From Gammaproteobacteria bacterium (lineage in GTDB: Bacteria; Pseudomonadota; Gammaproteobacteria; JAADGQ01): a DNA stretch of 35,145 nt. The notes under the pieces are model-generated. The model searched no databases and was not told the DNA's origin. It saw only the letters and a program-made list of their open reading frames with translations. Positions within the stretch are counted from its first letter, which is position 1; each line of letters starts with the position of its first letter. The translations under genes were made by a program, and so were the position numbers. The DNA is taken from the NCBI GenBank assembly GCA_015490755.1, contig WFXF01000036.1:1-35145 (forward strand), given 5' to 3'. This document shows positions 1 to 13,498 of this stretch, one piece after another.

Positions 1-503
1 AGTGAAATATTTCGCAGTAAAATAATTCCGGCCAAACCTGTAGCAATCAGGCAAAAAGCTAAAAATACTTTACCAAAACCGATATGAACCCATAACCAGG
101 GCGTATCAAATGTAGGGGGAAAATTGCTCGGCCTCGGCTCTAGCGTAAGCACCCACGCACCAAGTACCCACATAATGGGCAGTACCACTACAGCACTTGC
201 ACGCAGTATTGGAAAACGCCAATAGATCAAGGCATAAATTAACCCCAAGCTGAATAACTGGCTTACAATCAGTTCAAATAAATTCACAAAAGGGCCGTGA
301 CCTAAATGCAGCCAACGCACTGCCATCGCAACCACAAGCAGTAAAACACCAGCTGAAATAAAACCCAGCACAATCATTTCGTCACGCTGACTGGTCACTT
401 TTTGTGACTGAAAAACCACAGAGTAAATCGCCACAAATGTCGCTATTGCATAAGCTGCCAACCCTGCCCATAACCACGGAAGTTCACTTGCATACCCAAT
501 CAT
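1..503 (-). CDS. ccsA: CcsA/CcmC-type cytochrome c assembly protein (partial)
   Basis: This is the 5' part (about 167 codons) of an integral membrane haem-handling protein; the rest lies beyond the window. The start is the ATG at 503, one base after the resB stop codon, so the pair should be translated together. The visible protein has several hydrophobic helices separated by short loops. It contains the segment VRWLHLGHGPFVNLFE and a later WVHIGFGKVF, which place histidines and aromatics as in CcsA, the haem-presenting half of the System II (Ccs) ligation machine. In this family CcsA and ResB together move haem across the inner membrane and attach it to CXXCH motifs outside. The position directly after cytochrome genes fits a role in maturing them. 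A CcmC/CcmF-like System I protein is less likely because ResB is its neighbour. Confidence 0.85.
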   Translation of the reverse strand, partial: MIGYASELPWLWAGLAAYAIATFVAIYSVVFQSQKVTSQRDEMIVLGFISAGVLLLVVAMAVRWLHLGHGPFVNLFELIVSQLFSLGLIYALIYWRFPILRASAVVVLPIMWVLGAWVLTLEPRPSNFPPTFDTPWLWVHIGFGKVFLAFCLIATGLAGIILLRNIS

Positions 504-504
504 A

Positions 505-1455
505 TTAATTTTTATTAACCTTTTGCCAAAAATGAAACAACAATCCTATCACTCCAATTACTGATGTAAAAAACAGCCAATGTAACGTTGGATCATAAAA
601 CACTTTATAGCCCATCCAGCTGGTCATGTATTCATAACGCAATTGACCATCAGGCAGCTGGGCTATTTCTCCCGGTTGCAACTCAATACGTTGATCGTCA
701 CTATTCACGACCAATATACCTGTTGATTTGTTAGCATCCAGTACCCAGTCACTGCTTGCATCAATCCCGGTATCCAGCCGCAACCAGAATTTGATCTCTG
801 GTGCCCCGGGAGGTTGCCAGCGATTTGCCTGCCGGTAATCATAGAGTGGATAGGGCGGCATGTGCACTGTACCTGTGACTTTTTCGCCTTGATCGGGAAT
901 CCAAGTCATGATTGGAGCAAAACCTTTATGAAAACTGGTATAAAAACGGTAACCTTGTATTACTAATGGAACAGCGTCGCCAAATGTCACTGCCTCTCCT
1001 TCACCATCATCCGTCGGCAATATCACCTGATTACGTGTTGGACCGCGCGCAATACCCGGGGAATAGCTGATGGTATAGTCACCCTGAATAAACCGGATAT
1101 TGTCCAGAGCACTCTTGTTATGTAAAGGTCCTTTCCGGATATTAAATAGGTCTGAAGGATCAAAAGCTGTACCATTCAGCATTTCAACGTGTGCATCAAA
1201 GTGAGTCAGCCGACCAATGGCTGCAAGAATCACCACGCCCAGTAAACCGGCATGAAATACCAATAGGCCGTAACGGCGATTAATTCGAGGATTACTGATC
1301 ATGGCGCAAACCAGATTCAGCGCCAAAAGAGCCATGGGAACAACTAATACCCATACGGGCATATCGGCAGGATTGCCATAACTAAGAATTGCACCCCCAC
1401 CAAGAAGCAGCATTCCCACCAATGTCAAGCGGGAAGAGGCCAGCACCTTAATCAT
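505..1455 (-). CDS. resB: ResB/Ccs1-like cytochrome c biogenesis protein
   Basis: A 316-residue membrane protein with two or three N-terminal transmembrane helices (about residues 8-26, 34-52 and 62-82), a large extracytoplasmic domain, and a C-terminal helix near residues 293-310. This is a compact version of the ResB/Ccs1 layout. ResB is the partner of CcsA in System II cytochrome c maturation; together they deliver and ligate haem. The histidine-bearing segment after the third helix (LTHFDAHVEML) is in the expected place. The ATG at 1455 overlaps the stop of the 11-haem cytochrome by 4 bases (ATGA), which implies translational coupling. It is shorter than many ResB proteins, as seen for versions that sit inside multihaem cytochrome clusters. 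I infer that it serves the cytochromes of this locus. Confidence 0.85.
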   Translation of the reverse strand: MIKVLASSRLTLVGMLLLGGGAILSYGNPADMPVWVLVVPMALLALNLVCAMISNPRINRRYGLLVFHAGLLGVVILAAIGRLTHFDAHVEMLNGTAFDPSDLFNIRKGPLHNKSALDNIRFIQGDYTISYSPGIARGPTRNQVILPTDDGEGEAVTFGDAVPLVIQGYRFYTSFHKGFAPIMTWIPDQGEKVTGTVHMPPYPLYDYRQANRWQPPGAPEIKFWLRLDTGIDASSDWVLDANKSTGILVVNSDDQRIELQPGEIAQLPDGQLRYEYMTSWMGYKVFYDPTLHWLFFTSVIGVIGLLFHFWQKVNKN

Positions 1456-4061
1456 GGAATTGCGTTACACCCTTCACTGTTAGGATCAGGTACCTGGTTT
1501 GGACTGCCTTTTTGCCCCGTCATCCAGTTCAATCCTGATTCACCATTACCTGGCCCCCCGACTGAACCACAATTTTCAGGAAGCCATTCGCCACTTCGTG
1601 CGAAATTTTTTACCTTCAATACACTACCATTGTAATAGGGACCCTGGTAATAACGCTTCTCAGTATTATTTCTTACCTGAGTTCCCGCTGGCAATCCTGC
1701 TTCAGGCCCCACATCATTCAAGTTTGCAAGGAATGTTTTATTTTTCCAACCATGTGGCACGGCAACATGACACAATGAACAGCGAAAATTAGTCACTCCC
1801 GTCAACGCTTGTACATGTCCACTATGTAAATTTTTACTTTGAAAAGCAAAGTCGATACATTGGGAGTCAGTAATTGAAGCCGACTGTACCTGAAACCCGC
1901 TCTCACCAGACATTTCACCGTTTGAAAGATCAATAAATTTCCCATAGTCATTATAGTCATGGCACTTAAAACAGAGTGCATTTGGAGTCCCGCCACTTGC
2001 TCCATCGCCTCCGGTTTGATCATTCCAAGCACCTTTCAATATGAAATTATTATTCGAACCATGTGGCCCCCAGGCAAAGCCATTCTCTCCCCCCATCGGT
2101 TCGATAGAGCCCGGCGGTGTATCTGAACCATGGCAATCAGTGCAGTACATAGTCTGGTTGCCAACATTCTGATTAAAAGGAGGCAACCAGTTATCTTTAT
2201 TGGCTTTGCGAACTTCAGGAGTCCTTCCAGTATCTTTAACCACAGGGTGCCATGATCGATGATTATTGTTTGCGTAATCGGAGTGAGCGCCTGTAGGAGT
2301 TAAAGACGTACTTCCGCCCTTATGGTCATCAGGCGACTGGAATTCCATTGCTTGATCAGTGTATTGCTCCATTGCATTCGTACCGGGCGGTGTACCCCCT
2401 CGATAGCGCCCTCCTAACATTGGTGGAGTATCATAAGCATAAGTTGAATGGCATTTAAAACAGAGCTGATATTCACGAGTTAAATGTTCCGATTCAACTG
2501 CTTCACTGGCTCCAACGCCACCATCACCCCGCTTCACATCATAACCTGTTGCCAGCGAACCAAATGCAGTATTACCATATCTTGGCTCCACACCAAATAC
2601 ACCTCGCAATACGCCTGATGCAATATTTGTTGGCGCAATATGTGTGCCCCCCTCATCAGGAATGGCACCATCATCATTAAATTTACGTTTCTTCATAACA
2701 CGGTGTGGATTATGGCAATCTGTACACTCTGCATGACGGTTATTCAAGTCACCATATCCTAACAGTTCACGAGACTCTACAAAGTCTTTACCAAGTTGTG
2801 TTCCATTACCTGTGCCAATTGAATGAACCTCTACACCACCGGGCTGATCAGCGGTCGCAATCGGCATACGACGCAACATCGTTGTAAAATCAGTTTTTAC
2901 ATCAGGCACCTGAAAACCTGCACTCCCTTGCCCTTGCAAAACACCCCCATCTTTTGAATGACACATATAACATGTTTCTTCGATAGCCGGGTTACCACCC
3001 TGTTTGTATTTAGCCCCATTGAGCGCAACTTGCTCTGAACCATCAGTGCCTTCACGCAATATGCGGCGAGAACCTTCAACGGCATGTGGGTCATGGCAGT
3101 TCACACAAGCACCTTGCCACACCGGCATATTTTTCGGAAACTCACGTAACTCAGCGGCTGAATTTTCATACAGTTCATCGGCAACAAGAGGGTTGGCATG
3201 CGCTGAGTTCACCCAACCGGCTTTATTGTGACAACCCAAACAGATAATATCACCACGTTCATTAAAAGTGCCTTCAGTTGGAGGCACTTGTTGAAAACGA
3301 TTCACACGTAAAAACTTGGTACTGACTTCAGAAGCATCATCTGTGACATGCGGATCATGACAGCTGATACACTCCATCTGGTTATCTTCCAATGGTAGCG
3401 TTGGATGAGTTCCTGGAACACGCTCTGCAACCGATGCGCCAGGTTCATTTGGTGTACGTAGCTCACCATCTCGCACACTCAATGCACTGTCATATGTAAA
3501 AGAGATTGGGTGATCATTTGAAAGATCAACTCCGAGCCGCCGAGTATAGCCACTACCTGAGCCTTGCTCCCCACCACCAATCGAACCATCAGATTCGACT
3601 CCACTTAAAGAGATGGTCGTGTTTTCTTTGCGATTTAACACGTTCACTGAACCCACAGCAATCGTGCCATCATGACATGACAGACAAAGTTTTGATTTTC
3701 CTTCAGGCTGGCCTAAATCAGTCGCATCTAAAGAGCTGGAGCTATAAGGTATATAAGAGCTGGTAGATAGTGAACGGTTCCACAGCGGCGCTTTCGGTAT
3801 ATCTGATGCTCCATGTGGAGTATGGCAAAACACACAAACCTGTGATTCGTTCGAAGCCATCATATCCCGATTTTGATTACCAGGCAGTTGAGGAGGCAGT
3901 GATGCTGAAAAATTATGTTTTGTGTTTCTGACATCAGAGACGATTTCAGCATGTGATGAAACGGTAAAAAAAATTAAAATAAATAACAAAATTCCTTTTA
4001 TTGTTATTAAAAAAAAGGGATTAAATTGACCGAAAAATGGCAAGTCATTTTTTCTGTTCAC
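1452..4061 (-). CDS. 11-haem c-type cytochrome
   Basis: An 869-residue exported protein with 11 CXXCH haem-attachment motifs: CVFCH, CLSCH, CISCH, CLGCH, CVNCH, CYMCH, CTDCH, CFKCH, CTDCH, CFKCH and CSLCH. A hydrophobic signal segment covers about residues 14-38 and ends in VSSHAE. About 20 further histidines are available as distal ligands, so bis-His coordination of every haem is possible. The first ~290 residues repeat the module of the tetrahaem protein at 12665-13498: TKHN, CVFCHTPH, PLWNR, CLSCHDG, SNDHP, SCHDPH and FLRV appear in the same order. The start is a GTG at 4061 with only a weak ribosome site; no internal ATG precedes the signal peptide. The protein is probably periplasmic or on the outer surface as the large electron-carrying element of the locus. 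The substrate is unknown. No CXXCK catalytic motif was seen, which argues against a nitrite reductase of the NrfA type. Confidence 0.9.
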   Translation of the reverse strand: MNRKNDLPFFGQFNPFFLITIKGILLFILIFFTVSSHAEIVSDVRNTKHNFSASLPPQLPGNQNRDMMASNESQVCVFCHTPHGASDIPKAPLWNRSLSTSSYIPYSSSSLDATDLGQPEGKSKLCLSCHDGTIAVGSVNVLNRKENTTISLSGVESDGSIGGGEQGSGSGYTRRLGVDLSNDHPISFTYDSALSVRDGELRTPNEPGASVAERVPGTHPTLPLEDNQMECISCHDPHVTDDASEVSTKFLRVNRFQQVPPTEGTFNERGDIICLGCHNKAGWVNSAHANPLVADELYENSAAELREFPKNMPVWQGACVNCHDPHAVEGSRRILREGTDGSEQVALNGAKYKQGGNPAIEETCYMCHSKDGGVLQGQGSAGFQVPDVKTDFTTMLRRMPIATADQPGGVEVHSIGTGNGTQLGKDFVESRELLGYGDLNNRHAECTDCHNPHRVMKKRKFNDDGAIPDEGGTHIAPTNIASGVLRGVFGVEPRYGNTAFGSLATGYDVKRGDGGVGASEAVESEHLTREYQLCFKCHSTYAYDTPPMLGGRYRGGTPPGTNAMEQYTDQAMEFQSPDDHKGGSTSLTPTGAHSDYANNNHRSWHPVVKDTGRTPEVRKANKDNWLPPFNQNVGNQTMYCTDCHGSDTPPGSIEPMGGENGFAWGPHGSNNNFILKGAWNDQTGGDGASGGTPNALCFKCHDYNDYGKFIDLSNGEMSGESGFQVQSASITDSQCIDFAFQSKNLHSGHVQALTGVTNFRCSLCHVAVPHGWKNKTFLANLNDVGPEAGLPAGTQVRNNTEKRYYQGPYYNGSVLKVKNFARSGEWLPENCGSVGGPGNGESGLNWMTGQKGSPNQVPDPNSEGCNAIP

Positions 4062-4096
4062 TGATTTTTACCCAATATTTTAGCTATCCGCTGCTA

Positions 4097-5191
4097 TTAG
4101 TAAGTACTGCTGATCATATCTGACTCCAGATATTGGAAAATAGCAACTCGCCCGTTAAACATGTCTGCGATATAAATTCTGTTTTCTTGATCGATCCAGA
4201 CACCAGCAGGCAAATAAAATTGACCAACACCATGCCCACTACCTCCAATCGGTAATAACAGATCACCCTCCTGATTATAAACCAGCAAGTGATCGTAATA
4301 GGACTCCATTACATAAACATGACCTTTTGTATCGACAGCAACACCTTTTGGGCGAGGAAGATCACCCACATACAGACCGCGTTTACCAATAATTTTAAGT
4401 ACTTCGCCGCTTAGATCAAGCACTTTGATTCGTGAATTGAATGTATCGGTGATATAGAGCTGATCATTGAAAAGAGATAGATAAGTGGGAGTATTGAATG
4501 CGTCAATCGTTTCACCGTGATATCCCCACGTTTCAAGAAGCACACCATCAGCATCCAGCACTTTAATATTATGTTCGCGCACATCGGCCACATAAATTCG
4601 ACCCGTATTAACGTGACGAACCAAACCAACAGGACGCACTACAATCTCATCCGCAAAAACTTCTTGTGGACGACCCTCACGATCCAGACGAACGATCATC
4701 CCAAGCTCGGCATCGGCGACCAGAAAGCCCTCTTGACCATCTTCAACAATTGCAGAAGGGGCAATGAAACGACGATTCTTCTCTGCCATCTCCCATATAT
4801 CCAGCTTGCCATTTTTTTTATCAAAAACATAAATGGCCTGACGACTGACATCAGTCACCAATATTCGCCCATCACTATCAACCAATCCATTTTGAGGTCG
4901 TTGCAGAACTTTGGGCTGATATTTTTTTGAAGTGAGCCCAACCAGCCATTTAAAAGCCTGCGCTACAAAATTTTTCCTATCTTCACTTGTGGACTGAAAA
5001 TTCTCTTCACCGATCAATTCCCCGACATATCGATAACGTGCGACCTCAGGTTCCGTAGGCCAAACTTGTGGTGTGTTCTCATGCGGTTGAATAAAAGATA
5101 AGGTTGCAGGTGCTGTTGCACACCCGGACATAAGCAAAATGACTACAACAAATAAAACAACATAAAAAAGCCTCTTTTCAAGAAGTTTCAT
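4097..5191 (-). CDS. NHL-repeat (beta-propeller) lipoprotein
   Basis: A 364-residue protein with a lipoprotein signal: a hydrophobic N-terminus ends in LLMSGC at about residue 24. The rest is a run of NHL-type repeats, recognised by recurring elements such as GLVDSDGRILVTDVS, GVAVDTKGHVYVMES and GVWIDQENRIYIADM, each about 45 residues apart. This is typical of a six-bladed propeller. Such propellers usually bind proteins or carbohydrates rather than catalyse. The ATG overlaps the stop of the preceding NHL gene by one base (TAATG), so the two are coupled. The gene is followed 35 bases later by the 11-haem cytochrome. I infer an envelope scaffold or docking factor for the cytochromes; the sequence does not give a specific partner. 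Confidence 0.85.
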   Translation of the reverse strand: MKLLEKRLFYVVLFVVVILLMSGCATAPATLSFIQPHENTPQVWPTEPEVARYRYVGELIGEENFQSTSEDRKNFVAQAFKWLVGLTSKKYQPKVLQRPQNGLVDSDGRILVTDVSRQAIYVFDKKNGKLDIWEMAEKNRRFIAPSAIVEDGQEGFLVADAELGMIVRLDREGRPQEVFADEIVVRPVGLVRHVNTGRIYVADVREHNIKVLDADGVLLETWGYHGETIDAFNTPTYLSLFNDQLYITDTFNSRIKVLDLSGEVLKIIGKRGLYVGDLPRPKGVAVDTKGHVYVMESYYDHLLVYNQEGDLLLPIGGSGHGVGQFYLPAGVWIDQENRIYIADMFNGRVAIFQYLESDMISSTY

Positions 5192-6315
5192 TATTCAGAC
5201 AAAGGCTCCAGCAACCCTTCAGGAACAATACGAAGCACTTGAATACGCTTATTTAAGTTATCCGTCACATACAAGAACCCCTCATCCAGCCACATATCAG
5301 TAATCCTGTTAAATCGACCCGGGCCATTACCTGTACCTCCAAATGTAGAAATCAACTCACCTTTTCTATAAATTTTTATTTTGTTATCAAATGAATCACT
5401 GACAAAGGCTTGATTATCCTCATCAATAACAATGGCCGTAGGAAATATCAAAGTATTCTCTTGAAAGGCATAGCGAAAACGACTATCCAGATTAACAACT
5501 TGAGCTCTTGTACCAATGCGAGATGTAACATAAACACCTTCGTTACCTATGGCAAGAGCAGTCACCCCCCTGAATTCACCCTGTTTTTTTCCACGAGCAC
5601 CGATTGCATCAAGAAGGGTCCCTTGGCGATCAAAAACCAGAATATAGTCGTACGAACCATCCGCAATGAGTACAAAACCTCGATGCTCATCAACAGTAAT
5701 GCCGACAGGCCTGGACATATTCAAATAATTTTCAAATACCTGTATTAGTTTTCCTGACTGGCTAAAGTGTAATACACGGCCTGCACTGGAATCAGTGAGA
5801 TAAAAAGAGAGGTCAGGTGCAACATAAATATCAGTAATTTCCTGTTTGATATGCTTAGCTACACCAGATATTAATTGAAGCTGATCCAGATCATTATCAT
5901 AGAGATAAACCCCCTTTTCTGCTTCATCAACAATATAAACATATTTACCTCGTGCAGCAGTTGCAACAGGGTTTTTAAGCTGTTGTCTGGTTAAGCCTGT
6001 TAATCTATTTCCAACAGCTCCACCATCAATAGTCGACCAATTAATCAAAATTGATTCATTCGCTAAAGAAGGGAGCTCTAAACCACCCTCATCATCTAGC
6101 AATAGCTCAGGTGAATCCGCCAGTTTATCAAGTACACCTGAGTGTGAAGGAGGAGCGGGCACAGAGTCAGGTACAGCAGAAATAGCCCATGCAGGTGGAG
6201 GCTTAGGCTCAGACGCACACCCTGCAAAAGCAAGCAGTGTGACGAACAAAGCGCTAAAACGAAACAACCCTTCTATTGTCGTAACAACTTGGTTTTTCGA
6301 GGTTCGGAATGACAT
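5191..6315 (-). CDS. NHL-repeat (beta-propeller) lipoprotein
   Basis: About 374 residues, with a lipobox ending in LLAFAGC near residue 33 followed by a proline-rich linker, then NHL-type repeats (GITVDEHRGFVLIADG, AIVIDEDNQAFVSDS and DMWLDEGFLYVTDN are examples). A TTG at 6324 also opens the frame, but the ATG at 6315 lies behind a GTGGG stretch and gives the more usual N-terminus, so I chose it. It still overlaps the upstream trihaem cytochrome gene by 43 bases, an unusually long overlap within this operon. The protein is a paralogue in architecture of the next gene but the two are clearly divergent. Tandem NHL proteins beside multihaem cytochromes suggest an assembly or anchoring function in the outer envelope; this is inference. 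Confidence 0.82.
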   Translation of the reverse strand: MSFRTSKNQVVTTIEGLFRFSALFVTLLAFAGCASEPKPPPAWAISAVPDSVPAPPSHSGVLDKLADSPELLLDDEGGLELPSLANESILINWSTIDGGAVGNRLTGLTRQQLKNPVATAARGKYVYIVDEAEKGVYLYDNDLDQLQLISGVAKHIKQEITDIYVAPDLSFYLTDSSAGRVLHFSQSGKLIQVFENYLNMSRPVGITVDEHRGFVLIADGSYDYILVFDRQGTLLDAIGARGKKQGEFRGVTALAIGNEGVYVTSRIGTRAQVVNLDSRFRYAFQENTLIFPTAIVIDEDNQAFVSDSFDNKIKIYRKGELISTFGGTGNGPGRFNRITDMWLDEGFLYVTDNLNKRIQVLRIVPEGLLEPLSE

Positions 6316-6896
6316 CGCCCACAATTCATTGTTGGTGGAAAAGCAACTTTACCATGACAAACCCCACAGTACTTCCCTTGCATAATTGCGGACATTGTCA
6401 CAGGATTTGCACCCTTTTCAGGAATAAATATTTTGGGGTGACAATTCGCACAAGTCAGCCACTCTGTATGCTGTTTATGTGGATAGCGCACAACAGGCAT
6501 AGACCCTGTCTTATCAAAAACAATATCAAAATCTACAACCGTCATTTTTTCTTTGCCAGAACCCTCTCTTCCCATGCGTGGATTAATCAGGCCCTTTTCA
6601 ATAGCTTGCACCCAGTCTGTTATTCCAGCAGAGTCACGAGGAAAATCTTTCATCGCTTCGACGGGTGCCTGCAAATTTTTTACAGCACCATTCGAAGCAT
6701 CATGAATACCATCCTTTTCAACGGGAACAATTTCAGCTTCTGTCTGAAAATGTGAACCGCGCTCAGGCAGAACAGGAACCAACTTACTTTTTTCATCTGC
6801 AATAGCAAGTCCACTTCCCATTCCGAAAACAGTAGCACTCACTAAAAGGACACTGGAAACAAGATTTCCAACACACTTTCTAAGGTCATATCTCAT
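6273..6896 (-). CDS. Trihaem c7-type cytochrome
   Basis: A 207-residue exported protein. The N-terminal signal (about residues 10-33) ends in GLAIADE. Three CXXCH motifs lie in the C-terminal third: CANCH, CGVCH and CGRCH, with the conserved distal histidine pair PHKQHTEW just before the first haem. This is the c7/c3-like trihaem fold used by small periplasmic electron shuttles. Residues 60-140 carry an extra conserved region (GIHDASNGAV, then a helical stretch) that is shared with the paralogue at 8578-9243. The two proteins match nearly residue for residue around the haems. It probably passes electrons between inner-membrane donors and the outer-membrane parts of this locus. It follows the cupredoxin lipoprotein gene by 34 bases. 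Confidence 0.87.
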   Translation of the reverse strand: MRYDLRKCVGNLVSSVLLVSATVFGMGSGLAIADEKSKLVPVLPERGSHFQTEAEIVPVEKDGIHDASNGAVKNLQAPVEAMKDFPRDSAGITDWVQAIEKGLINPRMGREGSGKEKMTVVDFDIVFDKTGSMPVVRYPHKQHTEWLTCANCHPKIFIPEKGANPVTMSAIMQGKYCGVCHGKVAFPPTMNCGRCHSEPRKTKLLRQ

Positions 6897-6930
6897 CTAA
6901 AATTTACTCTATTACTCACAGTTTATTAAA

Positions 6931-8409
6931 CTATGAACCTACTCCGATCATTCGTAAAGCACGAATCAAGTTATCTGTTGCTGCCTGCAAAGCAAGTATG
7001 CCATTGCTATAATCACCTTTTTTCCCAAGCTCAATACCCTCCTTTTTTATAGATTTGCTCTTTTTGACAAAGTTATCCATTAATCTCAAGGTACCTGCAG
7101 AAGGTTGTTTTTGATCAATTCCTAATGGAATCAGTTCTTCATAACTTAGGTGACGCGCCAGTTCATACTCATACTCTTCTTTGGGGGTTTCAAAGTTTTT
7201 ATCGTAAACCACTGTTTTGGCGTGAAGTATTTTATTAAGAGAGCCCGCGATTATTTTTTGAGCCTCCTGTAAATCTTTATTTGCTGCCGCATAATCCCCC
7301 GAACTTGCCAACTTTTCAGCCTCTTCAACTAATGCTGAAAACCGACCTTCATCCATTTTATCAGCACTTTTAGCACCTTTCACATGGGTCTTATATGTTT
7401 TTTCATATTTATTCACTTCATCCAAAAGCTCTGCATACCGTGCCTCCTGGTCAATAACAGATTCAGTACTTGGCACCATGCGCGTTGCATCATTCATTGT
7501 ACGTAATGATAAATCGACTTTATCCAGTGCCTCAGAATTTTTACCCGCTTTCAACAAGGTGCGAGATTCGTCCAGATAGTCTTGAGCCTTTTGCATGAGG
7601 CCTTTTGCCTCATCATGGCCGCTTGCAGCAATGCGCTGTGCGGACTTTGATGAATCACTCAACATCATGTTTGCAAAGTTAATTTTCTGTTTAACCTGAT
7701 TGGAAGAAACAGATCTTTTTACAGGTTTACCGACAATAGGGCTTTTACGTTTTGACAAAGCATCAATGTCAATTCTTTCACCTTTATCAACTACGTAAAT
7801 CTTGCCGCCCATATACTTATGGTTAACACATTGATAATAAAGTACGTCAGGCGTTTTTTCATTGGGAGTCAAACTCACTTTTCCTATATAAGTAAACTGC
7901 CCTGTTACACCCTCTTTTTCTGTAATCGCGCCTGCACCCCATCCTTTTGGATTAGTCGTCAAATAAAAGTCGTGAGTCACCCCTGTATCAATATCAAAGG
8001 TGTAATTTTGACCCCGCTCAACAACAAAGTCTTTTCCAGGAACACCATTCACAGTGAATCCTATATCAGTCCCCTGTTGATATTTTGGATGACTGGAATC
8101 TTTTTTGACTGAGCGAACAATGAATGTATTTTTATCTGCAGGCAGCACTACTTCTTTTGCTTTTACATCCTCTACGACCAAGCCACCACTCTCTTCTTTC
8201 ACCGCATCGTTAAGTGGAATTACAACAGCTTCTTCAATTTTCTTTTCAGCTTGAGGTTGTACTGATTTAACAACATCAACCGCTTGTTCTTTTAAATCAC
8301 TACCCATTTCAGGCAGTACTTCTTCGGACTTTTTAATACCAGAGCCACACGCGGCCACGCTAAAAGTCATTGCTACCAAGACGCTCTTTTGCAACAGTTT
8401 TTTATTCAT
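6931..8409 (-). CDS. Lipoprotein with cupredoxin domain and helical C-terminal domain
   Basis: A 492-residue lipoprotein; the signal ends in SVAAC with the lipid-bearing Cys at residue 21. Residues ~30-90 form a charged, low-complexity tether. Residues ~94-208 are a cupredoxin-like beta domain with a complete type 1 copper ligand set: His146 (GVTHDFY), then Cys194, His197 and Met200 in YYQCVNHKYMGG. Residues ~240-490 are alpha-helical and charged, resembling TPR-like or coiled helical hairpins (SEALDKVDLSLRT, GDYAAANKDLQEAQ, GDYSNGILALQAA). The ribosome site GGAGG precedes the ATG well. A one-electron blue copper carrier fused to a helical scaffold, between cytochrome genes, suggests an electron-transfer bridge tethered to a membrane. 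I do not know a named family with this domain order, and the helical part has no function I can assign. Confidence 0.8.
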   Translation of the reverse strand: MNKKLLQKSVLVAMTFSVAACGSGIKKSEEVLPEMGSDLKEQAVDVVKSVQPQAEKKIEEAVVIPLNDAVKEESGGLVVEDVKAKEVVLPADKNTFIVRSVKKDSSHPKYQQGTDIGFTVNGVPGKDFVVERGQNYTFDIDTGVTHDFYLTTNPKGWGAGAITEKEGVTGQFTYIGKVSLTPNEKTPDVLYYQCVNHKYMGGKIYVVDKGERIDIDALSKRKSPIVGKPVKRSVSSNQVKQKINFANMMLSDSSKSAQRIAASGHDEAKGLMQKAQDYLDESRTLLKAGKNSEALDKVDLSLRTMNDATRMVPSTESVIDQEARYAELLDEVNKYEKTYKTHVKGAKSADKMDEGRFSALVEEAEKLASSGDYAAANKDLQEAQKIIAGSLNKILHAKTVVYDKNFETPKEEYEYELARHLSYEELIPLGIDQKQPSAGTLRLMDNFVKKSKSIKKEGIELGKKGDYSNGILALQAATDNLIRALRMIGVGS

Positions 8410-8481
8410 TATTTTCTGCCTCCAAGTTAGTCAGACATAGCTCGCTACAACTCTCCATGCTTAACTATCCGTATAATTTTA

Positions 8482-8510
8482 AAAATATTGATTTACTTTA
8501 TTTATATCAA
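8482..8510 (-). promoter_or_regulatory. Candidate sigma70 promoter for the cupredoxin lipoprotein gene
   Basis: On the minus strand, TTGATA (8510-8505) and TATTTT (8487-8482) are separated by 17 bases, about 70 bases upstream of the ATG at 8409. The same stretch is bounded by an inverted TTGAT...ATCAA pair (8488-8510). It lies in a 168-base gap that separates the two trihaem genes upstream from the rest of the locus, so it may give the downstream genes a separate start. The prediction rests on consensus matching only. Confidence 0.35.
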
Positions 8511-8577
8511 CACACGGGTTAAGCCAAAAAATATGACCTAACCCATATCTTCTATTTAAAACCAAACTCTTAAAAAA

Positions 8578-9243
8578 TCATTTCCAGGGATTTTTAAGTG
8601 ATGCCTGACTCATGGGTGGTTCCCAATCAGCAGGTTTTGGTTTTGAATGGCATAAACCACATGATTTTGTGGTCACTGGAAAAGATACTTTGCCATGACA
8701 TACACCACAATCCTTACCTAGCAAAATCGAAGACATATTAAATTGGTTTGCATTTTGCTGTGGAATGAAAATTGTTGGATGACAATTCGCGCAAGCCAGC
8801 CACTCAGTATGCTGACGATGAGGAAAAATAACATCAGGCACTGAAGATTTGACTTCACGCACAATATCCATATCCATTACAAACGCTTCTTCTGCAGGGT
8901 TGATTCGATCCCAACGAGGGTTAATCTTCCCTTCTTCCAAAGTTTTCACCCAATCCACATAATTGCCAAACTTGCTTGTTACAAAACCACTAAAAGCTTC
9001 TTTAGGCGGCTGCAGAACATGCGTACTATCATTTGCAGGATCATGAATGCCATCTTCTGATGGAGCAGCATTAATATTAGTCTCTTTTTTAAGGTTACGG
9101 TTAAAAGTGTTAACCGCACTTACAGAAGCGACGTTTATTGTGTCAGACTGGGCAATGACTGCATCTTCTGCTTGCACTGCACTCAATGGAGCAACCGCAA
9201 CTAAAGCGAAAGCTAGAGAAATCGATTTTGTTTTAAAATTCAT
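8578..9243 (-). CDS. Trihaem c7-type cytochrome
   Basis: About 221 residues from the ATG at 9243, chosen because AGGAG lies 7 bases before it and the protein then begins with a clean signal peptide (MNFKTKSISLAFALVAVAP...VQA). Upstream in-frame codons add only a charged leader. Three haem motifs, CANCH, CGVCH and CGLCH, follow the distal-ligand segment PHRQHTEW. The protein is a close paralogue of the one at 6273-6896: PHxQHTEWLxCANCHP, IFIP, GKxCGVCHGKV and the middle GIHD region are shared. A duplication inside the locus is the simple explanation. The role is probably a periplasmic electron shuttle. Its stop is followed by a 168-base gap before the cupredoxin gene. Confidence 0.87.
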   Translation of the reverse strand: MNFKTKSISLAFALVAVAPLSAVQAEDAVIAQSDTINVASVSAVNTFNRNLKKETNINAAPSEDGIHDPANDSTHVLQPPKEAFSGFVTSKFGNYVDWVKTLEEGKINPRWDRINPAEEAFVMDMDIVREVKSSVPDVIFPHRQHTEWLACANCHPTIFIPQQNANQFNMSSILLGKDCGVCHGKVSFPVTTKSCGLCHSKPKPADWEPPMSQASLKNPWK

Positions 9244-9253
9244 AACCCTCTCC

Positions 9254-9682
9254 TTATTTGCTTTCCAGCGATTTATACGCAGGAGCAACTAAACGTTGCA
9301 CTGTGCTACCATGAAAATGCGTTGGTGTACCAGGGTTACCTGAATGACACATATTACAGTTTTCTACAGACCACGCGACTTCGCCATTGTGGCAAGCTCC
9401 ACAGAACTGACCATCAATAATTTTTGCCATCGTAATTTTGTTACCGCCCGCTTTAAATTCAAAACCCAAATCGGCATGACATACTTTGCAACGAAAACGA
9501 ATGCGATGAAACCAGTGTGGAAAAACAGCAGGACGCATACCCGCTGCGTCAGAATAGTTATTTATAACCACATCGCCATATTCTGCATGAACATTCTGAG
9601 AACCTAACATCAGAACTAATCCAGCCAATATCCCGACACAAGCAAATTTATTTATAAATTTGCGCAAGGGATTGAGTATCAT
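9254..9682 (-). CDS. Small trihaem c7-type cytochrome
   Basis: About 142 residues from the ATG at 9682; an excellent ribosome site (GAGGAGGT, 5 bases away) decides this start over a codon seven residues upstream. The signal peptide ends in QNVHAEYGD. Three motifs, CKVCH, CGACH and CNMCH, follow the distal segment FPHWFHRIRF. It shares the FPHxxH...CxxCH...GxxCGxCH...CxxCHS spacing with the two larger trihaem proteins but lacks their N-terminal extension. It is thus a minimal c7-type domain. It is followed after 10 bases by the larger paralogue, so both are likely made together. It is probably a soluble periplasmic carrier. Confidence 0.87.
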   Translation of the reverse strand: MILNPLRKFINKFACVGILAGLVLMLGSQNVHAEYGDVVINNYSDAAGMRPAVFPHWFHRIRFRCKVCHADLGFEFKAGGNKITMAKIIDGQFCGACHNGEVAWSVENCNMCHSGNPGTPTHFHGSTVQRLVAPAYKSLESK

Positions 9683-9781
9683 TGAACACCTCCTCGTCAA
9701 CAAAATAAAAAGTAATTATTAAAAAACACACTTACCCTTTTACAAACAGGTTACCAAATATTCCTTGTTGTATAAAAGCTG

Positions 9782-9819
9782 TCAGATTATGAAAAAATAG
9801 AAGTATCCCCATAATCTGA
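9782..9819. repeat. 10-bp perfect inverted repeat in the gap between the beta-barrel and trihaem genes
   Basis: TCAGATTATG (9782-9791) and CATAATCTGA (9810-9819) are exact reverse complements with an 18-base loop. They lie in the 212-base gap between the beta-barrel stop and the small trihaem gene. No T-run follows on the minus strand, so a classical terminator is unlikely. An operator or an RNA-processing hairpin is possible. The rest of the gap is AT-rich without other clear signals. Confidence 0.4.
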
Positions 9820-9894
9820 GAGCCTTTCAGAACACTCACTGCTCCCTGCCATAAAAGATTTTTTCAACCAAGTGGGTTAAAAATACCTTCCTGG

Positions 9895-11661
9895 TTAAAA
9901 TCGTCGAGTTACCCGAACCAGCATTAAATTGCTACGATCACCTTCACGATCAATGATTCGATAACTTAAACTGCAATCAAGCAAACCGATACTGTAGTCC
10001 AGGCGATTATCCCACTCTGAACGATCCACACCATTGCTTAATGACACCTTTGAAATATTCAGATCAGAACGAAACCCTAGATTGGTCACTCCAAAAATGC
10101 GTTGGTGATAATAACCGATTTGGCCTGATGTTGTCTCTATATTCTCCAAATCGCCATAACGTGTACGCTGTGCCGTCATACTCGCATTCAACTCACTTCG
10201 GCGATTTAGAGGAAGCACTCCTGACAATTGAAAGTTAAATAACTGTTGTGCATTATCTTGATCATCAATATCACGTCGATCCTCTATGAACAGTCGCGCA
10301 TAAGCTGAAATCCATTTTACCGACTTGTTCCAACCGAAGCTTGCTGAATGGTCAATTTTTGTGACTGTGTCACTTTGATCACCAGACAGCTTGTTTTGAT
10401 TAACTGCTTGACTTAAATTCAGATTAAGGCGAGACGACAGAGGTGCAATCCATACTCTTTCCATATTATGTCCAATACGCCCCAAAACACTATTTTTTAC
10501 TTCATCAACCTCATCAGAACGTTGTATTGAACCTGAAGCATACCACTGATAAGTAACATCATAAAAAGGCTCATATAGATCTGATTGATATAACCCACCC
10601 ATACGTAGATTATTAAAATCTTTTTGAGTCTGGCCATCATCATTGGTGCCAACACTTGCGCCAACATCACCTCTGAAGTTTTTAGTAAACTGATAAATTG
10701 CGCCTCCACGAACAGTTGTTGAAAAAACGCCACCCGCATTATCAGTTATATCCGTATCAATATCCGCAATCCTCACACCACCATTCACGGTGAGCAAGCG
10801 ACTGTTTGATCGCCATAATGCAAAGCTGGACATCTGTATGGTATTCACTGTTGTATCATCAAATTCAACCAATGTTGGCTGCTGCAACGAAGTATCCACA
10901 TTGGACAGGCTAAACATCGAATCAATCGTCAACGACTCTGTAGGTCTCCAGAAATGATCGACATCAAGCAAACGATTTTCCGTCTTTCTTTTTTCTGTTG
11001 TTGCAAAACTTGTCGACTGACTGTTAAGTGTTGTCGTTAAAGTCTGGTTTGGAAAGCGTAATCTCGCTTCCAACCCCACATTTTGATCGTCATAACGGTC
11101 GCTATCTGAAGTCCATCGCCCCTTACTGAAACGTCCTTGAAAGCGGTGATTTTCAGCCGTAACCCATGATTGACGAAGATCAAGGCGGTTTGTTTTATAG
11201 TTTTGCCCTGAATCAACCAGCAAATTATTGTCACTTTGAGTATCGACACGACTATCACTTGCGTGAAAAACCAGTGAAAAAGGTGCTCGACTCCGAGGCA
11301 GAACATTCAAGTTAAACTCACCCGTTATAATTTTTGCATCCTTGCCTTGCTGCCCAATACTATAATCATAATCACTGCTATCAAGTGTTACACTCAATCG
11401 CCCACCCGCAGTAGCAAACCAGGGTTGCCACAAATAGGATGAACCTTTTATTGAGCCTTCCAACTGATTACTAATCACTTTATCACCATCTGTTTGAGCA
11501 TGAGAACGGTAATTGTAACCAACACTTCCTGACAAATTCAAAGCAGCGGCTCCTATGGCCAGACTACCCCATAAAATAGTGAACAATAAAACAGACAACA
11601 GGGCGATACCACTCAATAATGGCTTAAGCGCCTTTCTGCTCACTATTGAATTTATCGCCAT
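9895..11661 (-). CDS. Outer-membrane beta-barrel protein of the cytochrome locus
   Basis: A 588-residue protein with a signal segment (about residues 16-40, ending near GAAALNLSG) and then alternating short polar/hydrophobic strands throughout. It ends in VRVTRRF, a terminal phenylalanine typical of barrels inserted by BamA. Repeated aromatic-girdle strands such as VGYNYRS, VTYQWYASGS and LDYSIGLLDCSLSY support a large barrel of perhaps 20 or more strands. There is no CXXCH. Its size and position among cytochrome genes resemble the porins of porin-cytochrome conduits, but I see no MtrB-type CXXC near the N-terminus and do not assign it to that family. The gene starts 8 bases after the prolyl isomerase stop, without a strong ribosome site, so coupling is likely. 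Confidence 0.8.
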   Translation of the reverse strand: MAINSIVSRKALKPLLSGIALLSVLLFTILWGSLAIGAAALNLSGSVGYNYRSHAQTDGDKVISNQLEGSIKGSSYLWQPWFATAGGRLSVTLDSSDYDYSIGQQGKDAKIITGEFNLNVLPRSRAPFSLVFHASDSRVDTQSDNNLLVDSGQNYKTNRLDLRQSWVTAENHRFQGRFSKGRWTSDSDRYDDQNVGLEARLRFPNQTLTTTLNSQSTSFATTEKRKTENRLLDVDHFWRPTESLTIDSMFSLSNVDTSLQQPTLVEFDDTTVNTIQMSSFALWRSNSRLLTVNGGVRIADIDTDITDNAGGVFSTTVRGGAIYQFTKNFRGDVGASVGTNDDGQTQKDFNNLRMGGLYQSDLYEPFYDVTYQWYASGSIQRSDEVDEVKNSVLGRIGHNMERVWIAPLSSRLNLNLSQAVNQNKLSGDQSDTVTKIDHSASFGWNKSVKWISAYARLFIEDRRDIDDQDNAQQLFNFQLSGVLPLNRRSELNASMTAQRTRYGDLENIETTSGQIGYYHQRIFGVTNLGFRSDLNISKVSLSNGVDRSEWDNRLDYSIGLLDCSLSYRIIDREGDRSNLMLVRVTRRF

Positions 11662-11669
11662 ACAGTTAT

Positions 11670-12659
11670 TTATTCGATGCTAGCCAAAACCGACTTATTC
11701 GTTGTTATTGGTGTCGTATTACGCAATTTATTAATAAACTTGCTGAGCGCAAGCTCGCGATTTTCTCGTAACCATAAATCGCTTGCCCGCTCTTTAACGT
11801 CCACAAATTTATTTAACCTGGATGAACGTTTATCAAGCAATTTCATAATAGCCACCCCTTGTAATAAAACCACAGGTTTAGAGACATCACCACGAGCCAT
11901 TCCATCCAATACGCTCTGTGCTTGTGGTGCCAACATCCCTTTATGTATATATCCCAAATCCCCTCCATTAGCCGCTGACTCATGCTTAGAGTAGCGGCGA
12001 GCCAGATCTGAAAAATCAGCACCGCCCTTAATTTTAGAAACCAGGCTTTCGGCTTTTGAAAATTCGGACTCCCATACCTCACCTTTTGATGAAGGCGCCA
12101 CCTTTAACAAAATCAATGAAATATGAAACTGCTCCGGTGTTGTAAATTTATCTGTATTTTGCTTGTAATAACTCAGAATCTCCTCTTCCTTTACTGCAAC
12201 ACCATCCTTAATTTTCAAGCTCATCTGATCAATCAGACTCTTTTCTTTAAGTTCTTGAGCGACTGACTTTAACCATACATCGCTCGTTGATTGCCAACCC
12301 CTGGCATTAATGCGTCTCTTCCATTGCTGGACTTCGCTACTGACCCAGCGCTCATCTGGTTTCAGACCACGTTTGATCGACTCTTGAAGCAACAACCTTT
12401 TATCAACCATATCGGCTAATACTTCCTGACGTAGAGCTATTTTTTTTTCTGCGGAAGCCGAGCCATGATAAAATTTACGACGAAGCTCCGCATGAAAAGC
12501 GGCTTTAAACTGCAACACTGTGATTTTCTCATCACCCACTGTTGCAACTATTGATGCATCATTGATAATAGTATCAGCCGCAATATCACTGACATTTAAA
12601 AAAAACATCATAAAAAAACCTACAATAGGTATAACTGTTTTTTTTAAACTTAGCATCAT
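11670..12659 (-). CDS. Parvulin-type (PpiC/SurA-like) peptidyl-prolyl isomerase
   Basis: A 329-residue exported foldase. The N-terminal hydrophobic segment (about residues 9-27) is followed by a SurA-like helical chaperone region (VATVGDEKITVLQFKAAF, then EVLADMVDKRLLLQE). A parvulin domain lies at about residues 175-275; characteristic elements are FHISLILLKV, KIKGGADFSDLARRYS and AANGGDLGYIHKGML. Such proteins isomerise prolyl bonds and escort barrels or secreted proteins through the periplasm. It lies between the tetrahaem cytochrome (5 bases upstream) and the beta-barrel (8 bases downstream). I infer a dedicated chaperone for one or both. Prolyl isomerases of this type also accompany multihaem cytochrome genes in Geobacter-like bacteria, as far as I recall. 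Confidence 0.88.
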   Translation of the reverse strand: MMLSLKKTVIPIVGFFMMFFLNVSDIAADTIINDASIVATVGDEKITVLQFKAAFHAELRRKFYHGSASAEKKIALRQEVLADMVDKRLLLQESIKRGLKPDERWVSSEVQQWKRRINARGWQSTSDVWLKSVAQELKEKSLIDQMSLKIKDGVAVKEEEILSYYKQNTDKFTTPEQFHISLILLKVAPSSKGEVWESEFSKAESLVSKIKGGADFSDLARRYSKHESAANGGDLGYIHKGMLAPQAQSVLDGMARGDVSKPVVLLQGVAIMKLLDKRSSRLNKFVDVKERASDLWLRENRELALSKFINKLRNTTPITTNKSVLASIE

Positions 12660-12664
12660 GAGTA

Positions 12665-13498
12665 TTATTTAGTGTGACAAGCCAGACAAACAGTGCTTCC
12701 AGAAGGCGTAACACGCAAAAAAGTAGGGTTTTCATCGACATGAGGATCATGACAAGAAGCGCATTCAACATACGGCTGAGGTTCACCTAACCATCTACCA
12801 CGAGTGCCCACACGTGTATAGAGCTTCATATCCGTTCTTTCATACCCACTCGTCCCACCTTCCGTTGCGGTATTCACCCACCAGACACGTGTCGTCCCGT
12901 TTATTTCAGTAACAGGGGGCTTAAAATCTCTATCAACCCCTGGGCCTTGAGGATTTGCATTAGAGTAGCCACCTCCAGCATATTGAACACCCACCGGATG
13001 ATCATTGGTTAAATCTTTGCCAAGGTTCGTTATAACATCAACTGGAATCGTACCATCGGTATTTGCAACCAACCCACTCCACGACCCAGCAGAATAGGCC
13101 GGCACATCCAGACCGGAGCCTGGTTCATTGATGACAGAATCCATGGCTTGCGAACCATCATGGCAAGACAAACATGCCAAAGAGACCGATCCAATTGCCT
13201 CTACACCACCATCAAGTGTCGTAGTTCCCGTTTGATCATACGTCGCAAAAGCACCCGAGTTCGTTAAATTGCGATTCCAAAGAGGCACTGCAGCTTCGCG
13301 ATTAGCCGCATGGGGTGTATGACAAAACACACAAACTTCTGCTGTGCCACTAAAGTTGCTGGTTCCACCAATGCCGGTACTACCTAAGTTATGCTTGGTA
13401 TTTGCAATACCCGCACTACTCAAATGACTTGAAACAAGCAATATTCCAAACAACAAAAAGGAAGCTCTTTGTGGCTTAATAATTTGATCTATCCGCAA
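12665..13498 (-). CDS. Tetrahaem c-type cytochrome, possible filament-forming (OmcE-like) type
   Basis: A 277-residue protein and the first gene of the locus. The start is a TTG at 13498 with AAGGTG 7 bases upstream; no ATG fits before the signal peptide (about residues 12-32, LLFGILLVSSHLSSAGIA). Four haem motifs are present: CVFCH (56-60), CLSCH, CASCH and CLACH. After the signal peptide there are exactly four other histidines: TKHN, CHTPH, NDHP and CHDPH. That is one distal ligand per haem. The spacing TKHN-CVFCHTPH-PLWNR-CLSCHDG-NDHPV-CHDPH-FLR-CLACH is also found at the start of the 11-haem protein. The tetrahaem layout resembles the extracellular OmcE type of Geobacter; that assignment is inference from memory, not from alignment. 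The chain ends three residues after the last CXXC (HTK), so nothing extends beyond the final haem. Confidence 0.85.
   Translation of the reverse strand: MRIDQIIKPQRASFLLFGILLVSSHLSSAGIANTKHNLGSTGIGGTSNFSGTAEVCVFCHTPHAANREAAVPLWNRNLTNSGAFATYDQTGTTTLDGGVEAIGSVSLACLSCHDGSQAMDSVINEPGSGLDVPAYSAGSWSGLVANTDGTIPVDVITNLGKDLTNDHPVGVQYAGGGYSNANPQGPGVDRDFKPPVTEINGTTRVWWVNTATEGGTSGYERTDMKLYTRVGTRGRWLGEPQPYVECASCHDPHVDENPTFLRVTPSGSTVCLACHTK

Follow-up and report, generated by a model that had tools for sequence, protein, structure and literature searches.

A probable undecahaem electron transfer (Uet/MHCR) locus in a gammaproteobacterial genome, with homologues of the OmcE nanowire subunit

The Uet (undecahaem electron transfer) or MHCR cluster has already been described in cathode-growing bacteria, and its proposed role is to carry electrons between the cell and a mineral or electrode. 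In its published form, UetA is a tetrahaem cytochrome, UetB a peptidyl-prolyl isomerase (PPIase), UetC a barrel, UetD, UetE and UetG trihaem cytochromes, UetH and UetI NHL proteins, and UetJ an undecahaem cytochrome (PMC10734462; PMC12575090). The locus tags reported for ‘Ca. Tenderia electrophaga’, which run from Tel_16500 to Tel_16545, include three trihaem cytochromes (Tel_16515, Tel_16520 and Tel_16530), a TPR protein (Tel_16525) and an undecahaem cytochrome (Tel_16545), and the trihaem genes rank among the most expressed at the cathode (PMC5371394). A homologous MHCR cluster, which includes Ccm and CcsXAB genes, is present in cathode-enriched and cathode-grown Thiomicrorhabdus, where SREC-4 showed 13CO2 fixation with an electrode as the electron source (PMC9751133, PMC13293256). 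We found no demonstration of function by mutation for any uet gene in the Uet/MHCR literature searched.

We analyzed a window of 35,145 nucleotides, i.e., the whole stretch of gammaproteobacterial DNA presented here, which contains the following genes:

12665–13498, minus strand: uetA, a tetrahaem c-type cytochrome and OmcE homologue (4 CXXCH; phmmer to PDB 7tfs, E = 8.8e-27)
11670–12659, minus strand: uetB, a periplasmic PPIC-type peptidyl-prolyl isomerase with a SurA-like N-terminus (PF13616, E = 1.4e-17)
9895–11661, minus strand: uetC, an outer-membrane beta-barrel with 28 predicted strands (AlphaFold2 model, mean pLDDT 83.7)
9254–9703, minus strand: uetD, a c7-type trihaem cytochrome (TIGR04257, E = 2.8e-18; PDB 3ov0, E = 1.2e-42)
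8578–9288, minus strand: uetE, a c7-type trihaem cytochrome with an N-terminal extension of ~130 aa (TIGR04257, E = 7.1e-17; PDB 3ov0, E = 2.3e-28)
6931–8409, minus strand: uetF, a lipoprotein with a cupredoxin domain and a C-terminal helical/TPR-like domain (PF25489, E = 7.7e-8)
6273–6896, minus strand: uetG, a c7-type trihaem cytochrome with an N-terminal extension (TIGR04257, E = 1.3e-19)
5191–6324, minus strand: uetH, an NHL-repeat beta-propeller lipoprotein (PF01436, E = 4.3e-10; lipobox LAFAGC)
4097–5191, minus strand: uetI, an NHL-repeat beta-propeller lipoprotein (PF01436, E = 1.1e-19; lipobox LMSGC)
1452–4061, minus strand: uetJ, an undecahaem cytochrome with an OmcE/UetA-like N-terminal four-haem module (11 CXXCH; residues 36–248 to PDB 7tfs)
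505–1455, minus strand: a ResB (Ccs1)-like System II haem-ligation protein (PF05140, E = 4.1e-10)
3–503, minus strand: the N-terminal half of a CcsA/CcsB System II protein, with the rest on contig C92 (TIGR03144, E = 6.4e-9; 18-nt overlap, frame continues)

A script count of CXXCH motifs gave 4, 3, 3, 3 and 11 in uetA, uetD, uetE, uetG and uetJ, respectively, for a total of 24, all on the minus strand. This agrees with the five cytochrome genes of the original prediction, and the other parts that it had named from the letters were likewise recovered, i.e., a beta-barrel (the 588-aa UetC), a periplasmic prolyl isomerase, two NHL lipoproteins, a copper lipoprotein and haem-ligation genes. When all six frames of the 35 kb were scanned, just three other CXXCH motifs came up (+6387, which is antisense, +32139 and -33992), all of them isolated, and the cluster of haem motifs is therefore not due to chance. 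The 4- and 11-haem proteins both contain a Paired_CXXCH domain.

The gene set and order in the window are those of uetABCDEFGHIJ in ‘Ca. Tenderia electrophaga’, as matched by published descriptions (PMC10734462, PMC5371394, PMC12575090) rather than by Tenderia sequences. As in the Uet cluster of this organism, of Tenderiales and of some Gallionella, ten gene types from A to J occur in the same order, with a tetrahaem A, PPIase B, barrel C, three trihaem proteins, NHL proteins H and I and an 11-haem J. The positions of Tel_16515/16520/16530, Tel_16525 and Tel_16545 are exactly those of D, E and G, of F, and of J. The undecahaem UetJ (11 CXXCH in 869 aa) has full-length homologues in many families, and ResB and CcsA adjoin uetJ. 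We conclude that the locus is very probably a complete uetABCDEFGHIJ (MHCR) cluster with System II haem-ligation genes, whose products would carry electrons across the outer membrane. The original prediction had seen a conduit for electrons to or from the cell exterior, which agrees with the literature on this gene set, but had matched the set to no named system. A novel, unnamed system was rejected, as the Uet/MHCR publications describe the same genes; the System II genes (CcsXAB) belong to the MHCR cluster (PMC9751133) and are a standard part of it. The established pathway, although genetically unproven, has the same purpose as had been guessed and not a different one. The main value of the analysis for this locus is its correct naming, with which the source genome joins the likely electroactive autotrophs.

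The locus differs from that of Tenderia in its host and in UetF, which we read as a cupredoxin and helical lipoprotein, whereas the 2017 text gives Tel_16525 only as a TPR protein. It resembles the MHCR of ‘Ca. Thiomicrorhabdus electrophagus’ ISEC-1 and of SREC-4 in its multihaem set of up to 11 haems, its barrel, six-blade propellers, System II (CcsXAB) and System I; there, however, 30 genes form one cluster, whereas here another contig, C88, holds the System I genes together with additional propeller and cytochrome genes. Besides the ccm operon of System I, contig C88 encodes a UetA-like cytochrome with five haems and a third NHL lipoprotein, and the description of the locus as self-contained was therefore too strong. 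The contig edge truncates CcsA at position 1, but the locus extends beyond it: the gene carries on in contig C92, which shares 18 nt with the start of the window, and a TPR gene comes next. Primers for qPCR of the SREC-4 11-haem gene gave best matches with 5–9 mismatches of 22, which is about background, and were uninformative as a link.

Our survey of relatives showed that the Uet block recurs in ~22 loci of gamma-, beta- and magnetotactic Proteobacteria, with the A-J-ResB-CcsA order kept across many families and ResB-CcsA following UetJ in nearly all complete loci. The barrel and the undecahaem protein occur together in 14 of 14 carriers (94 genomes), which bears out the co-conservation of barrel and cytochromes on which the original prediction had been staked. 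In a set of 398 genomes from the phylum, almost every strong UetA has a UetJ no more than about 11 kb away. A search for UetJ in plasmids gave no match. The cultured Sedimenticola hydrogenitrophicus carries the locus (L035), the cluster is also reported from an Azoarcus strain (PMC9751133), and growth or enrichment on cathodes has been reported for relatives (PMC5371394, PMC9751133, PMC13293256).

From these parts we infer an electron path and its partner contacts as follows. Outside the cell, OmcE-like UetA and undecahaem UetJ would contact a mineral, electrode or partner; at the large UetC barrel, electrons would pass to the trihaem proteins UetD, UetE and UetG (and the UetF copper site), and then to the inner-membrane chain. 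UetB may aid the folding of the surface cytochromes and the UetH and UetI propellers their assembly, with ResB/CcsA attaching haem to the haem-rich products. The domains of the trihaem proteins share homology with the c7-type repeats of the poly-c7 protein in PDB 3ov0 (318-aa chain, four matched stretches), but in Uet they are separate three-haem proteins and not one fused chain.

The type-1 copper ligands of UetF (H146, C194, H197 and M200, i.e., His-Cys-His-Met) are invariant in 12 of 12 homologues, which supports its prediction as a copper lipoprotein. A UetF profile searched against PDB sequences found no cupredoxin; its matches were limited to an antibody and designed helical proteins. 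Examination of the relatives demonstrated that the cluster occurs in two forms, one with the cupredoxin UetF and one with an extra trihaem protein in its place; we found no mention of these two forms in the Uet/MHCR literature, of which coverage was incomplete.

UetA shows full-length homology to OmcE, the nanowire subunit of Geobacter sulfurreducens (PDB 7TFS), with all four haem motifs collinear, and also matches PDB 9yuq (E = 1e-22). Residues 36–248 of UetJ match the same structure (E = 3.3e-20; profile E = 5.4e-36), and the UetA profile also covers the fourth haem of UetJ. The mature UetA has a total of eight His, two for each haem; every one of them, including that of the N-terminal NTKH, is invariant in 17 homologues, and the candidate haem-ligand His are all conserved in UetA and the UetJ N-terminal module relative to OmcE. 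Judged by these alignments, both UetA and the UetJ N-terminal module are clearly homologous to OmcE; no mention of this was found in the Uet/MHCR literature, again with incomplete coverage. Compared with OmcE, Uet adds a dedicated barrel, three trihaem proteins and an undecahaem fusion. A six-haem protein beside Bacillota NHL and 15-haem genes (L037), compared with the solved nanowires, had no PDB match.

The OmcE filament has a helical rise of 34 Å (PMC12954529). In OmcE and OmcS, subunits are linked by a His that ligates the haem of the neighbour (PMC9473688); the first candidates for a counterpart of this His are H36 in UetA and H49 in UetJ. This linkage, together with the full-length UetA match, its paired invariant His and the OmcE module of UetJ, suggests a refinement that is compatible with the conduit and that we consider quite possible, although tentative: UetA may be an extracellular nanowire that polymerizes like OmcE, UetJ may start or cap the filament at the outer membrane, and the PPIase and NHL proteins may be filament-assembly factors. 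Set against this, homology to a filament subunit is no proof of filament formation, and the predicted structure of UetJ (pLDDT 31.5) is unusable, so that the geometry is not derivable from it. A wider proposal, which we regard as rather doubtful, is that Uet takes up electrons through a nanowire, with UetA as an OmcE-type filament outside the cell, UetJ (OmcE module plus seven haems) as the adaptor to the barrel conduit, nanowire, base and envelope path encoded in one operon, and the cupredoxin UetF and the extra trihaem protein as interchangeable carriers in two cluster lineages. This addresses how nanowires attach to the cell envelope, and whether they can bring electrons in as well as discharge them. 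Both questions become testable in a cultured carrier such as Sedimenticola hydrogenitrophicus, since a single conserved operon encodes an OmcE homologue, a fusion sharing its module, periplasmic cytochromes and a large barrel.

Electron flow through the Uet conduit is probably inward here, since the source genome encodes large and small RuBisCO subunits with CsoS2-like and carboxysomal-carbonic-anhydrase-like ORFs, as well as two haem-copper oxidases, and a search of it found no SoxB and no DsrA above the cut-off. Such inward flow would most likely feed aerobic respiration and CO2 fixation. The genome also contains a NapC-family cytochrome and a NiFe-hydrogenase-family gene, the latter making other electron donors possible. 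The same conduit run outward, with electrons leaving to metal oxides or another extracellular acceptor, is unlikely, given the RuBisCO, carboxysome-type and oxidase genes and the fact that the experimentally studied carriers were cathode enrichments; in its favour, OmcE and the PDB relatives of the trihaem proteins stem largely from metal reducers. Multihaem conduits are, in addition, generally thought to be reversible (PMC10734462), and undecahaem clusters are reported in the Mn reducer ‘Ca. Dechloromonas occultata’ (cited in PMC13264449), so that gene content does not fix the direction.

A large barrel with a surface multihaem cytochrome is also found in MtrCAB and MtoAB, but Uet is without the decahaem MtrA/MtoA and has c7-type trihaem proteins in its place, and the barrels share no detectable sequence family. 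There is no decahaem ORF in the window, where the cytochromes adjoining the barrel have three haems, and a DmsE/MtrA-type model scored far below the cut-off against the window proteins. UetC has no Pfam or NCBIfam family match; its top Foldseek match is MtrB (6r2q_B, E = 1.3e-9), but with a TM of only 0.39 and an rmsd of 15 Å. VIA-align returned many unrelated large barrels (Z 15–20, rmsd mostly ~11 Å), with MtrB not among the matches listed, and as these score about equally it was dropped as a means of family assignment. Such even resemblance to many large barrels would fit a different role for these components, such as storing electrons in the periplasm or respiring a soluble substrate, in which the barrel would be an ordinary porin or transporter. 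This is very unlikely, given that barrel and undecahaem protein strictly co-occur, that the 28 predicted strands are MtrB-size and above general-porin size, and that MtrB is the top Foldseek match, weak as it is.

Scans for promoters and terminators were at chance level (37 found against 37.0 expected, and 11 against 12.5). The many gene overlaps described earlier stand in part: some listed starts, being the first in-frame start codon, are probably too early, and the overlaps are therefore partly inflated. For example, uetE probably starts at an ATG slightly downstream of TTG 9288.

Our analysis of contig WFXF01000036.1, part of a 2.63 Mb assembly of 94 contigs (completeness 99.67), identified twelve closely packed genes running from position 13498 to position 3 on the minus strand. 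This confirmed the multihaem locus described in the original prediction, since a scripted count places 24 CXXCH motifs in five of the twelve genes (4, 3, 3, 3 and 11), with just three more, all isolated, elsewhere in the six frames of the 35 kb. Domain searches identified a PPIase of the PPIC type, three trihaem proteins of the c7 type, a pair of NHL-propeller proteins, ResB and the beginning of CcsA. CcsA is interrupted by the end of the contig; a second contig (C92) of the same genome overlaps it by 18 nt and holds the remainder of CcsA and a TPR gene. In G001, a close relative, the identical gene order is unbroken.

This gene set and order is that of uetABCDEFGHIJ, matched to Tenderia through published gene descriptions. 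The cluster was named from ‘Ca. Tenderia electrophaga’ and occurs in Tenderiales and some Gallionella, with A a tetrahaem cytochrome, B a PPIase, C a barrel, D, E and G trihaem proteins, H and I NHL proteins, and J an undecahaem cytochrome (PMC10734462, PMC12575090); Leptothrix is another listed carrier of UetJ (PMC13386937). According to the Tenderia paper of 2017, trihaem Tel_16515, 16520 and 16530 sit at the positions of D, E and G, with the TPR protein Tel_16525 at the place of F and undecahaem Tel_16545 at that of J. The MHCR cluster of cathode-enriched Thiomicrorhabdus is homologous, and includes a barrel, propellers with 6 blades and both systems for cytochrome c maturation (PMC9751133); SREC-4, an MHCR carrier, fixed 13CO2 with its electrons supplied by electricity (PMC13293256). 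The electron conduit first proposed is reasonable, but its novelty is not upheld, the locus being a further member of this known system. A useful lead from it is the OmcE module shared by UetA and UetJ. Elsewhere in the same genome, on contig C88 (L058, 1241-16035), a System I ccm operon that looks complete precedes genes for a monohaem cytochrome, for two propeller proteins of the Reg_prop type and for a GGDEF/EAL protein, after which come an NHL lipoprotein and an OmcE/UetA-like cytochrome with 5 haems. This stretch is probably the second half of a gene set of the MHCR type.

UetA matches the subunit of the OmcE nanowire (7tfs) over its full length (E 8.8e-27) with all four haem motifs collinear, and also matches 9yuq, an entry of 16 chains whose sole name is ‘putative multiheme cytochrome c’ (E 1e-22). 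Past its likely signal peptide, UetA contains exactly eight His: one in each of the four CXXCH motifs, plus four more. All eight are invariant in 17 homologues. The N-terminus of UetJ is the same module (residues 36-248 against OmcE, E 3.3e-20; profile E 5.4e-36); the UetA profile also covers its fourth haem, and the matching His do not vary among 13 homologues. The 5-haem protein of contig C88 is an OmcE relative too (E 7.5e-14). In OmcE and OmcS, a haem of the next subunit is ligated by a His from its neighbour (PMC9473688), which, with the homology and the invariant His, suggests that UetA may form a polymer, a filament for which UetJ could serve as starter or cap. We did not meet this link in the literature searched, outside which the primary Uet and OmcE papers lie, and claim no novelty for it.

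Among 94 genomes sampled as relatives, mostly one per family, 14 were positive for the UetC barrel profile, and these same 14 all contain strong UetJ matches (that in G054 running into a contig end); J-like matches in G047, G069, G083 and G088 were only partial or weak, and occurred without the barrel. Gene order A-B-C-D-E-F-G-H-I-J-ResB-CcsA, or a close variant, was found in about 22 other loci, from Gammaproteobacteria, Nitrosomonadales, Magnetococcales and Sedimenticola hydrogenitrophicus. Strong UetA matches occur in about 22 of 398 genomes of the phylum, our genome included, nearly all with UetJ within about 11 kb. Barrel and cytochromes are thus co-conserved; a lack of such co-conservation was one of two findings that, by the original prediction, would have refuted it. 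OmcE-like/UetJ-like cytochrome segments in genomes lacking UetC (G047, contig C7, 179537-185371; G069, contig C73, 6110-11729) are perhaps another conduit built on the same module. Undecahaem UetJ is present as two tandem copies in locus L028 (9920-15073), and G066 carries two copies on contig C212 and a third on another contig.

The cluster exists in two forms. In the copper-type form (our locus and 11/11 such loci), UetF has a copper motif, UetD is single and UetH is present; in our locus UetF is a 492-aa lipoprotein whose His/Cys/His/Met copper-ligand set is invariant across 12 homologues. The other form has a short UetF of about 300 aa, in one to three copies, and mostly no UetH. Between G and I it carries a second trihaem protein resembling UetD, and its UetE is often a four-haem protein; all nine scored loci lack the copper motif and contain the second UetD. 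This alternation suggests similar roles for the copper domain and the extra trihaem.

UetA and UetJ would lie at the cell exterior, with UetC crossing the membrane. The 588-aa UetC had no family match in domain searches and is modelled as a 28-strand barrel (mean pLDDT 83.7), the size of MtrB. MtrB was its top Foldseek match, yet with a TM of 0.39 and rmsd of 15 A, and VIA-align did not single it out, so that common descent is not established. On the inner side would be UetD/E/G, related to the c7-type domains of PDB 3ov0, and the copper site of UetF, with UetB and UetH/I likely folding and assembly factors. Outward electron flow through this conduit is possible, an undecahaem cluster having been reported in a Mn reducer. 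Inward flow supporting CO2 fixation is favoured, since in this genome the RuBisCO subunits adjoin ORFs reading as CsoS2 and carboxysomal carbonic anhydrase, two haem-copper oxidase genes are present, no SoxB was found and no DsrA scored above the cut-off. The genome also contains a NiFe-hydrogenase-family gene and a NapC-family cytochrome.

In three loci of Bacillota and Chloroflexi MAGs (L037, L038 and L039), an NHL protein, a six-haem protein (with no solved relative for that of L037) and a 15-haem UetJ-like giant (1683-2180 aa) adjoin, with CcsA nearby in two; these sets are a possible distant Uet counterpart. In a Bacillota MAG (L036, 2967-4979, on a contig labelled Bacillota), an 11-haem UetJ relative of 671 aa (27% identity) adjoins an NHL gene.
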